This document shows, one piece after another, positions 53,499-59,880 of a stretch of DNA of 64,000 nt (position 1 is the stretch's first letter; every line of letters begins with the position of its first letter). Made by a program: the position numbers and the translations under genes. The notes beneath the pieces are model-generated. The model made no database searches and was not told the DNA's origin. It saw only the letters and a program-made list of their open reading frames with translations. Location: assembly GCF_003315415.1 (NCBI RefSeq), contig NZ_QNSB01000009.1, positions 62,001 to 126,000 of the forward strand, written 5' to 3'. This DNA is from Brevibacterium sanguinis (GTDB lineage: Bacteria; Actinomycetota; Actinomycetes; Actinomycetales; Brevibacteriaceae).

Positions 53499-55361
53499 AT
53501 GCGCGTTGCCGTCGTCGGAGCCACCGGGAACACGGGCACCGCGGTGCTCACGGCCCTCCTCGATCGTCGCGAGGTCACCGAGGTCCTCGGGATCGCCCGG
53601 CGCATGCCGGACGTCACCGTGGCCCCCTACTCCGACTGCGAGTGGACGTCGGTGGACATCGCGGCGGCCAGCTCCGAGGAGCAGGCGCTCGAGGAGCTGC
53701 GCGAGGCCTTCCGCGACGTCGACGCCGTCGTCCACCTCGCCTGGCTCATCCAGCCGAACACGCACCGTGAGCTGCTGCGCCGGGTCAACGTCGACGGGAC
53801 GATGCGGGTGGCTCGGGCTGCGGCGGACGCCGGGGTCTCCCACCTCGTCGTCGCCTCCTCGTGGGCCGCGTACTCACCGGATTCGAGCGAGGACCGCCGG
53901 GACGAATCGTGGCCGGTGGGAGGAATCGCCTCCTCGCACTACAGCGTCGACAAGGCCGCCCAGGAACAGGTCCTCGACGAGTTCGCCGCCGCCCATCCCG
54001 AGGTCCTCGTCACCCGGCTGCGCCCGGCCCTCGTGTTCCAGGCCGATGCCGCCCATCAGATCCAGCGGTACTTCCTCGGCCGCTGGATCCCGATGCAGAC
54101 CCTCGGTGCCCTCGCACCCCCGGTCCTGCCCGTGCCCAAGGGGCTGCGCGGGGTCCAGGCGGTGACCGCCGAGGACCTCGCCGCCGCGTATGCCTCGGCT
54201 GTCGTCAACCGGGTCCCCGGGGCGTTCAACATCTGCGCCGACGACATCCTCGGCCCCCGGGAGCTCGCCGACATCGTCGACCATGGCCGCTTCGTCGAGC
54301 TGCCACCGCGCCTGGTCCGCGCCTTCGTCTTCGGGGCGCACAAGGCCAGACTGCTCGCGGCGGACGAGGGCTGGCTCGACATGGCACTGTCGGTTCCCCG
54401 GATGGACAATGCCGCCGCGAAGCGGGAGCTCGGCTGGACTCCCCGCACCTCGGCCGCCGACGCCCTGCGGATCCTCCTCTCGGGGATGATCGCCGGATCG
54501 GGCACGGCCTCGGTCCCGCTGCGCCCCCGCGACCCCGACACCGGGCATCTGTCCACCGTCGAGGAGCCGGTGGCCGTGGGCGCCGCCGCACGCCGGGGCG
54601 GTCCGAACGTCTCCGACACCGTCAGCGTCGACCTCCTCAACCTCTATCTGTCCGACCACCTCACCGGGGCCACCGCCGGGGTGGAGCGGATCGAGCGGAT
54701 GGCGGCCGAGTACGTGGACACGCCCGTCTTCGCCACCCTCTCCCAGATCGCCGAGGAGATCCGTCTCGAGCGCTCGTTCCTCCGGAATCTCATCCACGAT
54801 CTCGGCATGAAGCAGATGCCCTACCGGCAGGCGCTGTCCTGGGTCGGCGAGCGGCTCGGCCGGCTGAAGAGCAACGGCAGGGTCGTCGAGCGCTCCCCGA
54901 TGTCCCTCGTGCTCGAGGCCGAGCTCATGCGCAGCGCCGTGATGGGCAAGCGCGGAGGCTGGCTGACCCTCGAGACGAACGCCGAGCTCCTGGGCCTCGA
55001 CCCCCAGGTCTTCGGCGATCTGGCCGAGCGGGCACTGGCGCAGGCCGACGCCCTCGAGGACGTCCACGCCTATGCCCGCGCCCGCGCCTTCCGCAACGAT
55101 CGTGAGACCTTCACCCCACAGACCCCCGATCACGCCCGTGATCAGGCTGCAGAAGAGCACAGTGAGGAGTCCGCCATGACAGAGAACCCCGAGGGCACCG
55201 GTCCCGACGCCGACGACGTCGAGACCGTTCCGGAGACGGCGCCGGAGCGGGAGGCCGAGCGCCCGGGCACCACGGCCGATCGCAAGGCCCACGACGACGC
55301 GCTCGCCGACGAATGGGGCGACGAGTCCTTCCCGAGCAGCGACCCGCCCGGCCACTACTGA
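53499..55361 (+). CDS. NAD-dependent epimerase/dehydratase fused to a helical domain and an acidic tail
   Basis: A 620-aa three-part protein. Residues 1-335 are an extended SDR: MRVAVVGATGNTGTAVL binds NAD and Tyr148/Lys152 (SVDK after HY) is the YxxxK pair. Residues about 378-525 (VSVDLLNLYLSDHLTGATAGVERIERMAAEY and on) are all-helical and resemble ferritin-like domains. Residues 560-620 are a Glu/Asp-rich segment ending DEWGDESFPSSDPPGHY, a tail seen in small stress proteins. GTGAGGAGTCCGCC before the in-frame ATG at 55176 could start a separate 61-aa product. GAGGAG precedes the ATG at 53499. It leads the redox cluster. Confidence 0.82.
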   Translation: MRVAVVGATGNTGTAVLTALLDRREVTEVLGIARRMPDVTVAPYSDCEWTSVDIAAASSEEQALEELREAFRDVDAVVHLAWLIQPNTHRELLRRVNVDGTMRVARAAADAGVSHLVVASSWAAYSPDSSEDRRDESWPVGGIASSHYSVDKAAQEQVLDEFAAAHPEVLVTRLRPALVFQADAAHQIQRYFLGRWIPMQTLGALAPPVLPVPKGLRGVQAVTAEDLAAAYASAVVNRVPGAFNICADDILGPRELADIVDHGRFVELPPRLVRAFVFGAHKARLLAADEGWLDMALSVPRMDNAAAKRELGWTPRTSAADALRILLSGMIAGSGTASVPLRPRDPDTGHLSTVEEPVAVGAAARRGGPNVSDTVSVDLLNLYLSDHLTGATAGVERIERMAAEYVDTPVFATLSQIAEEIRLERSFLRNLIHDLGMKQMPYRQALSWVGERLGRLKSNGRVVERSPMSLVLEAELMRSAVMGKRGGWLTLETNAELLGLDPQVFGDLAERALAQADALEDVHAYARARAFRNDRETFTPQTPDHARDQAAEEHSEESAMTENPEGTGPDADDVETVPETAPEREAERPGTTADRKAHDDALADEWGDESFPSSDPPGHY

Positions 55362-55459: not shown

Positions 55460-56638
55460 ATGCGAGCTCTGACCTGGCAAGGCAAACGCGACGTCAGCGT
55501 GGAGACGGTGATGGATCCGGTCCTCCGTGAGCCCACGGACGTCATCATCGAAGTCACCTCGACGGCGATCTGCGGCTCCGACCTCCACCTCTACGAGGTG
55601 CTCGGACCGTTCATGGACAAGGGCGACATCCTCGGTCACGAGCCGATGGGCGTCGTCGTCGAGGCAGGCGCCGAATCGGGACGCGCGGTCGGAGACCGGG
55701 TCGTCGTCCCCTTCGGGATCGCATGCGGGCGCTGCTGGATGTGCACGCGGGGACTGACCTCGCAGTGCGAGACCACCCAGGTGCGCGAACACGGAAGCGG
55801 AGCAGCGCTGTTCGGCTACTCCCGCCTCTACGGCTCCGTGCCCGGCGGACAGGCCGAGCTGCTGCGCGTCCCGCACGCGGACTTCGGCGCGGTCGAGGTC
55901 GGCACCGAGCTGCCCGATCACCGCTACCTCTTCCTCAGCGACGTCATCCCCACCGCATGGCAGGCCGTCGACTACGCCGGCGTCGGCCTCGGCGACACCG
56001 TGGCCGTGTACGGACTCGGCCCCATCGGGCAGATGGCCGCCCGCATCGCCGCCCACCTCGGCGCGAGGGTCTACGGGATCGATCCGGTGCCCGAGCGCCG
56101 GGAGATGGCGGCGCGCCACCACGCCCGCGTCTTCGACACCGACGACGACACGCACGAGGCGATCCGCGAGGACACGGCCGGGCGCGGCCCCGACGCCGTC
56201 ATCGACGCCGTCGGGATGGAAGCCCACGGCTCCCCGCTCGCCCAGGCCGCCCACCAGGCGGTGAGCCTCCTGCCCGATGCGATCGGCCGGAAGATGATGG
56301 AGGCCGGCGGCGTCGACCGGCTCTCCGCCCTGCACTCGGCGATCGACCTCGTCCGCCGCGGCGGGACCGTGTCCGTCACCGGGGTCTACGGCGGGGAGGC
56401 GAGCCCGCTGCCGATGCTCACCCTCTTCGACAAGCAGATCCAGCTGCGCATGGGCCAATGCAACGTCCACCGGTGGATCGACGAGCTGCTGCCCCTCGTC
56501 GAGGATCCGACCGACCCGCTCGGCACGGACGATCTCGTCACCCACCGGCTGCCGCTCAGCGCCGCCCCCGATGCCTACGAGTCGTTCCAGAAGAAGACCG
56601 ACGGCTGCATCAAGGTCGTCCTGGACCCCGCCTCATGA
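55460..56638 (+). CDS. Zinc-dependent medium-chain dehydrogenase (formaldehyde dehydrogenase-like)
   Basis: A 392-aa MDR enzyme. AICGSDLHLYEV holds the catalytic-zinc cysteine, DILGHEPMGVVVE the GHE motif, and CGRCWMCTRGLTSQC the four structural-zinc cysteines. VYGLGPIGQMAARIAAHLG is the NAD-binding loop. The length and long insertion resemble glutathione-independent formaldehyde or threonine-type dehydrogenases; the substrate is open. The ATG at 55460 follows CAGGAGGCC. The stop overlaps the next start by 4 bp (ATGA). Confidence 0.88.
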   Translation: MRALTWQGKRDVSVETVMDPVLREPTDVIIEVTSTAICGSDLHLYEVLGPFMDKGDILGHEPMGVVVEAGAESGRAVGDRVVVPFGIACGRCWMCTRGLTSQCETTQVREHGSGAALFGYSRLYGSVPGGQAELLRVPHADFGAVEVGTELPDHRYLFLSDVIPTAWQAVDYAGVGLGDTVAVYGLGPIGQMAARIAAHLGARVYGIDPVPERREMAARHHARVFDTDDDTHEAIREDTAGRGPDAVIDAVGMEAHGSPLAQAAHQAVSLLPDAIGRKMMEAGGVDRLSALHSAIDLVRRGGTVSVTGVYGGEASPLPMLTLFDKQIQLRMGQCNVHRWIDELLPLVEDPTDPLGTDDLVTHRLPLSAAPDAYESFQKKTDGCIKVVLDPAS

Positions 56639-58053
56639 GCGCCCCGGTCTGGTCCGAGGGGACGGGGCCACGGCCCGAGACGGCCGCTCGGCTCCCCGTC
56701 GGCGACCATGTCGACGTCGTCGTCGTGGGGGCCGGCCTGACGGGCCTCTTCACTGCGCGCACCCTCGCCGAGGCGGGTCGGACGGTGGTCGTCGTCGAAG
56801 CCCGCTCCGTCGGCTCCTGCGCCAGCGGGGCGTCCACGGGCAAGGCGAGCCTGCTCCAGGCCGCCCGGCACTCCCTCATCGCGGACTCGCTGAGCCTCGG
56901 CGTCGCCCGTGAGCATCTGCGCGCGCATGCCCACGGGCTCGAGGAGATCCTCTCCCTGTCGGCATCCCGGCGCTTCGGGCTCGAGCGGGCCAGCGCCTTC
57001 ACCGTCGCCGGCACCTCGGCGGGAGTCGAGCAGGTGCGCCGCGAGCACGAGGTCTGCCGGGAGCTCGGCCTGCCGGTGACCCTCCACGAGTCCCTCGACG
57101 CCCCCTACCCGGTGCACGCGGCCCTCGAGCTTCCCGATCAGGTCCAGCTCGATCCCCTCGCCCTCCTCGGCGAGCTCGTCGCAGCCGTCGCCGAGGCCGG
57201 TGGGCGGATCGTCGAAGGGTGCCGGGTGACGGGGCTCGACGACGACGGCGACCTCGTCTCCGTGGAGACGAGCATGGGGGATCTGAGCGCCGACCACGTC
57301 GTTCTCGCCACCGCCAGTCCGATCCTCGACCATGTCCCGACGACGACGACGCTCGTCCCCCACCGCTCGTACCTGTGCGCCTTCGACGTGCCGGATCAGC
57401 CGCTGACCGGCATGCACATCTCGGTCGACTCCCCGAGCCGATCCCTGCGCACCGCCGTGGTCGACGGACGGAGGCGCCTGCTCGTCGGCGGCAGCGGACA
57501 CCGCACGGGCGAGGCCCGCAGCACCCGCCGCCTCGTCGACGACCTCGAGGCCTGGACCACGGAGCACTTCCCCGGCGCCCGCCTCACCCATGCCTGGTCG
57601 GCCCAGGACCACCATCCGGTCGGACTGGTCCCCCTGGTCACCACGTTCGGCGGCGAATCCGGTCGGGTCCACTTCGCCGGCGGCTACAGCAAATGGGGAG
57701 TCACCGGCGCCCCGGCCGCCGCGCGGCACCTGACCGATCGTCTCCTCGGCCGTCCCGAGACCGTGTCCTTCGGCACCCCCTCGACGTGGGGCCGGGCGAA
57801 GAACGCGCTGAGGTCGCAGGCGAAGGCCCCCGCGATGATGGCGGGCAGCCTCGTCCGCGACGGGCTCACAGGCGAGGCGAGGGTCGACGGTGAGGACGTC
57901 AGGGTCAGCCTCGTCTGCCCCCACGCCGGCGGGATCTGCACCTGGAACGATGCCGAGAGCACGTGGGACTGCCCGCTCCACGGGTCCCGCTTCGGTCCCG
58001 CCGGCACCATCCTCGAGGGCCCCGCCACCACCGACCTCGACCGGCTCCGCTGA
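56635..58053 (+). CDS. FAD-dependent oxidoreductase with C-terminal Rieske domain
   Basis: A 472-aa fusion. Residues 28-370 are a DAO-type flavoprotein (VDVVVVGAGLTGLFTARTLAEAGRTVVVVEA; later HFAGGYSKWGVTGAPAAARHL). Residues about 425-472 are a Rieske [2Fe-2S] domain with CPHAGGICTWN and CPLHGSRFGPAG, both Cys-x-His and Cys-x2-His pairs present. This arrangement is known from a group of oxidoreductases of uncertain substrate found in stress gene clusters. It is coupled to the dehydrogenase upstream by ATGA overlap. Confidence 0.9.
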   Translation: MSAPVWSEGTGPRPETAARLPVGDHVDVVVVGAGLTGLFTARTLAEAGRTVVVVEARSVGSCASGASTGKASLLQAARHSLIADSLSLGVAREHLRAHAHGLEEILSLSASRRFGLERASAFTVAGTSAGVEQVRREHEVCRELGLPVTLHESLDAPYPVHAALELPDQVQLDPLALLGELVAAVAEAGGRIVEGCRVTGLDDDGDLVSVETSMGDLSADHVVLATASPILDHVPTTTTLVPHRSYLCAFDVPDQPLTGMHISVDSPSRSLRTAVVDGRRRLLVGGSGHRTGEARSTRRLVDDLEAWTTEHFPGARLTHAWSAQDHHPVGLVPLVTTFGGESGRVHFAGGYSKWGVTGAPAAARHLTDRLLGRPETVSFGTPSTWGRAKNALRSQAKAPAMMAGSLVRDGLTGEARVDGEDVRVSLVCPHAGGICTWNDAESTWDCPLHGSRFGPAGTILEGPATTDLDRLR

Positions 58054-58086: not shown

Positions 58087-59880
58087 ATGACAGACACCGA
58101 CAGGCAGACCGCCGATCTCATCGTCGACCGACTCCGCGACTGGGACGTCGAACGCGTCTACGGATACGCGGGAGACGGGAACAACCCCCTCCTCGGGGCG
58201 CTGCGGCGCTCCGCGGCCGCTCCCCGATTCATCAGCGCCCGGCATGAGGAGGGCGCGGCGTTCATGGCCGTCGGCGAGGCGAAGTACACCGGACGCGTCG
58301 GCGTCGTCACCTCGACGCAGGGCCCCGGCGCCGTGCATCTCCTCAACCCCCTCTACGACGCGAAGCTCGACAGCGCCCCCGTCGTCGCCCTCGTCGCCCA
58401 GCAGCACACGAGCGTCCTCGGCTCCGACTACCAGCAGGAGATCGACCTCCAGACCCTCTTCCACGACGTCGCCTCCCCGTTCGTCCAGCTCGTCTCCTCC
58501 CCCGAGCAGCTGCCGATGGTCCTCGACCGGGCGTTCCGCTCGGCCCTGGCCACCGCCCAGCCCGCGGTGCTCATCCTCCCCCACGACGTCCAGCAGGCCC
58601 CGGCGCCCGAGCACGGCCAGGCCCATGGCGAGGTCGTCACCTCCCCGCGCTGGTCCACCGGACGGGTCCTTCCCCGCGACGAGGACCTCGCCGAGGCGGC
58701 GGCGACGATCGAGGCGGGAGAGAAGGTCGCCCTCCTCGTCGGCCGCGGCGCCAAGCACGCCGGCGCCGAGGTCCTCGCCCTGGCCGAGCACCTCGGCGCC
58801 GGGATCACCACGAGTCTGCTCGGCAAGCCGTTCGTCGACGAAGGCCACGCGCTGGCCGCCGGGACGATGGGGCACCTGGGCACGAGCGCCTCGGCGCAGA
58901 TCCTCCAGGGCTGCGACACGCTCGTCATCATCGGATCCAACGATCCGTGGACCGAGTTCTACCCCGCCCCTGGGTCGGCGCGGGTGGTCCAGATCGACAT
59001 CGACCCGGCGATGCTCGGCAATCGCCATCCCGTCGACGTCGGCGTCGTCGGTGAGGCCGGCCCGACGATCGAGGCCCTGCTCGAGCGGCTGTCCCCGCGT
59101 CCCGACTCCCCCTGGCGGACCGAGGTCGAGCACCGGGTCCGCGCCTGGCACGAGATCGCCGCGGAGCGGGCGTACATCCCCGCCGAGCCGCTCAACCCGG
59201 AACTCGTCGTCCGGCGCTTCGCCGAGCGGGTCGGGGCGGACTGGCAGGTCGCGATCGACGTCGGCAGCGCCGTCTACCACTATGTGCGGCAGATGCGGCT
59301 GCCCACCACCGTCCCCGCCCACCTGTCGAGCACTCTGGCGAGCATGGGCTGTGCGATCCCCTTCGGGGTCGCGGCCAAGGAGAGTTCGCCCCGGCGTCCG
59401 GTCGCCGTGCTCGCCGGCGACGGTGCGATGGAGATGCTCGGCAACACCGAGCTGGTCACCGTCGCCGAGCGCTGGCCGCAGTGGGACGACCCCCGCTTCG
59501 TCATCCTCGTCCTCTGCAACCGGGACCTGTCCGAGGTGACGTGGGAGCAGCGGGAGATGGAGGCGCAGCCGCGCTTCGCGCCGTCCCAGGACGTCCCCGG
59601 GTTCGACTTCGCCGGCTACGCGCGGCTCCTCGGGCTCCACGGGGTCAGCGTCGCGGATCCGGATTCCGTCGAGGCGGCGCTCGACGAGGCGTTCGCGGCC
59701 GACAGGCCGGTCCTCATCGAGGCGGTCACCGACCCCGACGTGCCGCTGCTGCCGCCGTTCCCCCACGGCCGGCAGAAGCTCGAAGCGATGCGCACCGGAA
59801 TCGAGGCCGAGGGCGAACCGGGCGCCCATGCCCTCGAGCTCCTGGCGGCCTATGCCCGGATCGAGGAGGAGCGGCAGTGA
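58087..59880 (+). CDS. Thiamine-diphosphate-dependent enzyme, pyruvate oxidase-like
   Basis: A 597-aa ThDP enzyme with the three-domain order of the acetolactate synthase/pyruvate oxidase group. VYGYAGDGNNPLLGALR and RHEEGAAFMAVGEAKYTG carry the catalytic glutamate, and VLAGDGAMEMLGNTELVTVAERWPQW the ThDP-Mg motif. It resembles quinone-dependent pyruvate dehydrogenase (PoxB), but no clear C-terminal membrane helix is seen, so decarboxylase or other activity is possible. AGGAGGAGAG precedes the ATG. The stop codon directly abuts that of the convergent DUF3017 gene. Confidence 0.88.
   Translation: MTDTDRQTADLIVDRLRDWDVERVYGYAGDGNNPLLGALRRSAAAPRFISARHEEGAAFMAVGEAKYTGRVGVVTSTQGPGAVHLLNPLYDAKLDSAPVVALVAQQHTSVLGSDYQQEIDLQTLFHDVASPFVQLVSSPEQLPMVLDRAFRSALATAQPAVLILPHDVQQAPAPEHGQAHGEVVTSPRWSTGRVLPRDEDLAEAAATIEAGEKVALLVGRGAKHAGAEVLALAEHLGAGITTSLLGKPFVDEGHALAAGTMGHLGTSASAQILQGCDTLVIIGSNDPWTEFYPAPGSARVVQIDIDPAMLGNRHPVDVGVVGEAGPTIEALLERLSPRPDSPWRTEVEHRVRAWHEIAAERAYIPAEPLNPELVVRRFAERVGADWQVAIDVGSAVYHYVRQMRLPTTVPAHLSSTLASMGCAIPFGVAAKESSPRRPVAVLAGDGAMEMLGNTELVTVAERWPQWDDPRFVILVLCNRDLSEVTWEQREMEAQPRFAPSQDVPGFDFAGYARLLGLHGVSVADPDSVEAALDEAFAADRPVLIEAVTDPDVPLLPPFPHGRQKLEAMRTGIEAEGEPGAHALELLAAYARIEEERQ

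Follow-up and report, generated by a model that had tools for sequence, protein, structure and literature searches.

A short-chain dehydrogenase with a ferritin-like domain in Brevibacterium that has probably taken up a small acidic gene together with its start signal

The window, a stretch of 64,000 nucleotides from a Brevibacterium sanguinis genome (23 contigs, 3.77 Mb in total), contains on its plus strand at 53499-55361 a single open frame that encodes 620 amino acids and ends in TGA. An extended-type SDR (NAD-dependent epimerase/dehydratase) domain occupies residues 1-345 (53499-54533), a helical domain with a ferritin-like fold (hereafter HEL) residues 372-530 (54612-55088), and an acidic tail of 61 amino acids residues 560-620 (55176-55361). 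HEL and tail are connected by a linker (residues 533-559; 55095-55175), probably a former intergenic spacer that is now translated, in which a Shine-Dalgarno-like GAGGAG can be read directly at 55164-55169, 6 bases 5' of the ATG at 55176 with which the tail begins. The tail is a member of a small-protein family and possibly also a separate product; the conserved core of that family in an alignment of 15 tails corresponds here to DEWGDESFPSSDPP (55308-55349). A scan of the window protein matched no Pfam or NCBIfam family in HEL or in the tail. The first-pass annotation of this DNA had described epimerase, ferritin-like and acidic parts in one frame and a ribosome site with an ATG ahead of the tail, and both descriptions were borne out, the former by the reading frame, the Pfam match and the fold model, the latter by the GAGGAG sequence.

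An N-terminal glycine motif and a YxxxK motif are the marks of extended SDRs, and both were found: G7, G10, G13, Y148 and K152 were invariant in the 21 sequences aligned. The Pfam family Epimerase (PF01370) matched residues 3-246 with an E-value of 9.4e-20 and 71.5 bits, against a cut-off of 20.9. The window protein thus shares with this family the Rossmann glycine motif, the YxxxK motif and an above-cut-off score, but it has in addition a ferritin-like domain and a tail, and it reaches no NCBIfam equivalog cut-off (the best being HpnA, with 41.8 bits vs 367.65). A sequence search with the SDR part against solved structures yielded nothing at E <= 1e-10.

The predicted model of HEL (185 residues, mean pLDDT 81) consists of five long helices. 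Alignment with VIA-align gave the best Z-score, 15.2, to 3hiu, followed by YciE/YciF, Dps and bacterioferritin chains (e.g. 14.7 to YciE, 3ogh, and 13.8 to YciF, 2gs4), scores to be read with the caution that unrelated helical bundles can reach a Z of 13-14. With Foldseek the best E-value was only 0.028 and none was below 0.001. The top rows of both searches were nearly all ferritin-like, with the four-helix bundle present, and the structure prediction proposed in the first-pass annotation for the helical part returned a ferritin-like helix bundle. A search of the HEL profile against the sequences of solved structures gave chance matches only (best E 0.55). Diiron ferritin-like proteins carry as their hallmark a conserved Glu and two ExxH pairs. 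Among 49 HEL sequences D386, H387, D/E424, E451, E473, E475, K484, Q515 and D/E520 were conserved, as were R455 and K457, and no ExxH pair was; H523, invariant in 21 fused proteins, was not conserved after the separate HEL proteins had been added. Lacking these pairs, HEL is ruled out as a classical diiron ferritin, and on the basis of the model we take it to have a ferritin-like fold that lacks the classical iron site. It has the helix-bundle fold in common with YciE/YciF and other small ferritin-like stress proteins, but differs from YciE/YciF in its low identity (11-14%), the Foldseek E-value of 0.028, the lack of a conserved ExxH pair and the lack of a Pfam match. The Anabaena protein 3fse, in which a DJ-1/PfpI domain is joined to a ferritin-like domain, offers a parallel in that a ferritin-like domain is attached to an unrelated enzyme-type domain, although the partner there is not an SDR and the match was found in Foldseek row 3 at an E-value of only 0.034.

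The SDR-HEL combination was present in 16 of the 57 Brevibacterium genomes. It was also found in Nesterenkonia, Enteractinococcus, Leucobacter and a Corynebacterium MAG among the named relatives and, in a sample of 396 genomes of the order, of which 112 gave a match (mostly to SDR alone), in one frame in 16 genomes from five other families outside the genus. All of these 16 genes end at a stop codon, and no tail motif was found within 600 bases of it. A broken relative of the SDR gene, split across two frames and without HEL, was seen in G005 (L021) and is apparently a decayed copy. At the level of the class, 58 of 296 genomes matched HEL, mostly as separate genes of about 170 aa, and at least two of the 58 were fusions (the window's own and that of G306). 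In 3 of the 28 HEL loci read (L103, L114 and L124) a free-standing HEL gene immediately precedes a free-standing SDR gene, which supports the idea that SDR and HEL work together; lone, adjacent and fused forms of the two were thus all seen. The gene order HEL-SDR in these three loci is the reverse of the domain order in the fused protein. The spread over genera and families rules out that SDR and HEL were fused recently. As judged from these sequences, SDR-HEL is an old two-part enzyme, to which the tail alone was added later.

The tail contains 18 D/E and 4 K/R in its 61 residues, and the region from residue 533 to 620 is predicted to be disordered (pLDDT < 50). It follows the pattern of a short acidic protein ending in DEWxxESFPxSDPPxHY, as defined by the alignment of 15 rows; we refer to this unnamed family by a label of our own, the ESFPASDPP small acidic protein family. 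Neither the window tail nor three separate members from Actinomycetes matched a Pfam or NCBIfam model, and the tail peptide retrieved nothing at E <= 10 among the sequences of solved structures. Relatives of the tail were detected at E <= 0.01 in 42 of the 57 genus genomes, mostly as separate open reading frames. These separate genes encode 47-72 aa and have their own ATG; in most of them the protein starts with MT or MS and a ribosome site precedes the start. The window genome itself has a second, separate tail gene, which encodes 72 aa and has GGAGG ahead of the ATG (match G000:C4:44227-44394; L002, ending near 1650), whereas the only copy found in G007 is the fused one.

Among the 16 SDR-HEL genes of the genus, 11 stop before a tail. 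The tail is in frame and has an internal Met in four Brevibacterium genomes (the window, G051, G050 and G007), the proteins of which form one clade (support 97/92) with a tailless Leucobacter protein as sister, in a tree of 21 SDR-HEL proteins from which L015 (nearly identical to L014), L084, L088 and the order sample L136-L151 were left out. No tail was found in the 9.7-kb locus of that Leucobacter. A divergent protein of the same genus on a long branch, that of G032, has a fused related tail ending in DEWGRESFPASDAPAFP, without an internal Met, and a single origin of this fusion and the other four was not clearly rejected (p_AU 0.057). The first-pass annotation had suggested a recent fusion of neighbouring genes through loss of stop codons. 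A comparison of relatives, which it had recommended, revealed the tail as a separate small gene elsewhere and HEL as often separate; the suggestion fails for the SDR/HEL join, given its occurrence in 16 of 57 genus genomes and in other families, and it holds for the tail, which is fused in one well-supported clade. A three-part protein spread across genera without the internal site, the case named as counting against it, was not found, the tail lacking the internal Met being that of G032, within the genus.

The neighbouring genes suggest where the tail gene came from. Downstream in the window, all on the plus strand, lie as operon neighbours genes for a zinc alcohol dehydrogenase (ADH; 55460-56638; PF08240 and PF00107), for an FAD-dependent oxidoreductase with a C-terminal Rieske-like CPH...CPLH motif read from the open reading frame (56635-58053) and for a TPP-dependent pyruvate-oxidase-like (PoxB-like) enzyme (58087-59880; PF02776, PF00205 and PF02775), giving the order SDR-HEL-tail, ADH, FAD/Rieske-like, PoxB-like. 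The ADH gene adjoins SDR, SDR-HEL or tail genes in L009, L095, L103, L134 and L135, and a PoxB-like gene follows it in L095. The FAD/Rieske-like gene, which sits between the ADH and PoxB-like genes in the window, is kept as a neighbour in L078 and L079. The Corynebacterium MAG locus L095 reads tail - CinA - ADH - PoxB; in G010 and G029 a CinA-type gene overlaps the SDR-HEL stop (GTGA) and is followed by ADH; and in L089, from another Corynebacterium MAG, SDR-HEL is followed after a gap of 37 nt by a small acidic open reading frame and then by CinA (CinA assigned by Pfam in G010, L089 and L095). The small frame of L089 is weakly tail-like, with 46 of 2000 shuffles scoring as high, and lies in another frame, so that it supports the position more than the descent. 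Together these gene orders place the tail gene just downstream of SDR-HEL, where loss of the stop codon would fuse both. As the Leucobacter, the nearest unfused relative, has no adjoining tail gene, the state before the fusion is deduced from the distant Corynebacterium MAGs. Elsewhere tail genes were found next to trehalose genes and genes for PRC-barrel, DUF2934, hemerythrin and SDR proteins, and these surroundings, taken with the ADH, FAD/Rieske-like and PoxB-like genes of the window, suggest general stress operons.

Whether the tail is also made on its own depends on the internal start. The site at ATG 55176 has a calculated strength of -9.3 kcal/mol and is the strongest among the 13 internal in-frame ATGs. 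When synonymous codons were shuffled, 36% of 2000 draws contained a site as strong, when codons were shuffled 255 of 3838 internal ATGs had one, and strength as such is ruled out as proof of a second start, since chance yields as much. In all four fusions of the clade, however, an internal ATG with a strong site is kept at the same place (-9.3 in the window, -11.6, -10.3 and -10.3 kcal/mol in the others), ranking 1, 1, 2 and 1 of 13, 10, 11 and 15 internal ATGs, and its position is where the separate tail genes start elsewhere. The four genomes are related and do not represent four independent trials; nevertheless the conservation and the coincidence with the start of the separate genes lift the internal site above the evidence from the window alone. 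An in-frame internal start with a ribosome site that is kept, the sign of a gene within a gene, was thus seen in four of four clade fusions and was absent from G032. The linker evolves as coding sequence. Differences between the four genomes by codon position are 0.25/0.21/0.47, and changes in length are of whole codons only, without a frame-breaking indel, which makes it very likely that the linker is translated. As to the two products proposed in the first-pass annotation, the internal start kept in all four fusions sustains the idea, which is also compatible with a fusion of the tail; the small product itself stays putative, and on these sequences we consider it probable that it is made. 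A similar arrangement is described for the rpn genes (PMC10327210), where one frame with an internal start gives a long and a short C-terminal protein, Rpn being a nuclease with an antitoxin tail. It differs from the present case in that here the short part belongs to a family of free-standing genes and the small product is putative.

The explanation that we favour, and consider rather more probable than all others taken together, is loss of the stop codon between SDR-HEL and an adjoining small acidic gene, with two products. In one Brevibacterium lineage the SDR-HEL enzyme would have swallowed the next gene of its operon, encoding a protein of the ESFPASDPP family; with the stop presumably gone, ribosomes would read across the former spacer and on into the small gene and produce the protein of 620 aa, while some would still start at ATG 55176 and produce the protein of 61 aa alone. 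The most serious competitor, clearly less probable yet well worth considering, is that there is one product, the tail being a plain C-terminal extension and the ATG and its site unused, either as leftovers or as a by-product of Glu-Glu codons. The GAG-GAG codons can indeed account for the site, as the synonymous shuffles indicate, coding constraint acts on the linker, the fused tail of G032 does without an internal Met, and the separate second tail gene of the window genome means that no free product is needed here. Such an extension does not explain why the four fused genes all keep the ATG and a strong site although the intervening residues vary, and it fits poorly with G007, where the second, separate copy was not found.

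An ancestral tail, present in the first SDR-HEL proteins and repeatedly lost since, appears improbable. It would accommodate G032, which ends in a related tail on its separate long branch, and the p_AU value leaves room for one origin of all five, but a tail is missing from 11 of the 16 genus members, from 16 of the 16 genes read in the order sample and from the named relatives in other genera, and with tailless members so numerous many losses would be needed. An artefact of assembly or sequencing, i.e. a lost stop or a frameshift that unites what in the cell are two distinct genes, is the least credible of all: MAGs account for two of the other three genomes with the fusion, yet the join is common to four distinct genomes, the proteins of the other three are 17-33% different from that of the window, and the linkers vary by whole codons only.

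The picture of function is provisional and is predicted from the neighbours and the fold only. The SDR may perform NAD(P)-linked redox chemistry in a general-stress operon together with the ADH and PoxB-like enzymes, HEL may serve as a dimerising or sensing module rather than as an iron store, and the disordered tail could act as a docking tag linking the enzyme to a partner that is also bound by the free small protein.

A search of 296 class genomes with the tail profile provided an unexpected lead. Its main match was a mid-protein site in sequences 900-1000 residues long, in which the aconitase motif TSCTNTSN is present. Searched as a DNA pattern, SFPASDPP or SFPASDAP occurred in 46 of 197 class genomes (reversed control: 0), and 27 of the 30 loci read encode aconitase. 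Because loci picked with such a pattern necessarily contain the motif, a second sample of aconitase was drawn independently of it, consisting of 40 aconitase-A rows from 40 genomes of Actinomycetes (further rows and the shorter proteins of the family, 30 loci, were not included). In 31 of these at least 6 of the 9 residues of ESFPASD[PA]P were found in the loop between GPKRPQDR and SCTNTSN, and the remaining 9 had at most 4 of 9 and short loops (47-62 vs 70-106 residues); only 1 of 40 shuffled loops reached 6 motif residues (loci L274-L313 for the sample of 40, and also L158-L186 and L189-L218). The main aconitase of Brevibacterium had no such loop in the six genomes read. Second aconitase-family proteins of G007 (L234) and G004 (L235) carry SFPASDP.

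The motif was also encountered on plasmids of Paracoccaceae, where in 6 of 9 loci read (L132, L220, L239, L240, L241 and L243) a tail-type gene, encoding a small protein ending in ESFPASDPP, lies about 10-18 nt after a classical SDR gene. These six are close relatives and do not count as independent cases. The loci come from 19 plasmid records with a tail match, 12 of which were opened, 9 of those being Paracoccaceae, and with single E-values of 0.2 to 7 the matches rest on the recurring motif and not on significance. Another copy of the motif (L131) forms the end of a DUF2934 protein. In open-licence PMC text FPASDPP had no occurrence and SFPASD only unrelated ones; the matches listed for short linear motifs or disorder in aconitase included nothing relevant by title and start of abstract, and those for SDR fusions in Brevibacterium, judged from the listing, were all unrelated. 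ESFPASDPP may, although this is less likely than not, be an undescribed portable docking motif for a partner shared by all its carriers, which would be an Fe-S or stress factor. The carriers would be the small acidic stress proteins that end in it, the SDR-HEL enzyme with its fused tail, the proteins encoded after SDR genes in Alphaproteobacteria, and aconitase A of most Actinomycetes, where the motif lies in an inserted loop just ahead of the iron-sulphur cysteine motif.

In conclusion, the SDR-HEL join is ordinary, being a conserved domain fusion, and the tail appears to be a gene taken in without loss of its start signal. The locus presents a fusion in which the swallowed gene retains its start signal and for which the separate, adjacent and fused arrangements are all found in living relatives. 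It also brings to light two protein families for which Pfam and NCBIfam have no model, namely a ferritin-like partner of SDR and a small acidic tail, the motif of which recurs in aconitase, a spread that is an unexpected lead. If the docking reading is true, the fused gene would supply the tag both attached and free. The motif being common to an enzyme of central metabolism and to stress proteins, a search for one binding partner becomes directly possible.
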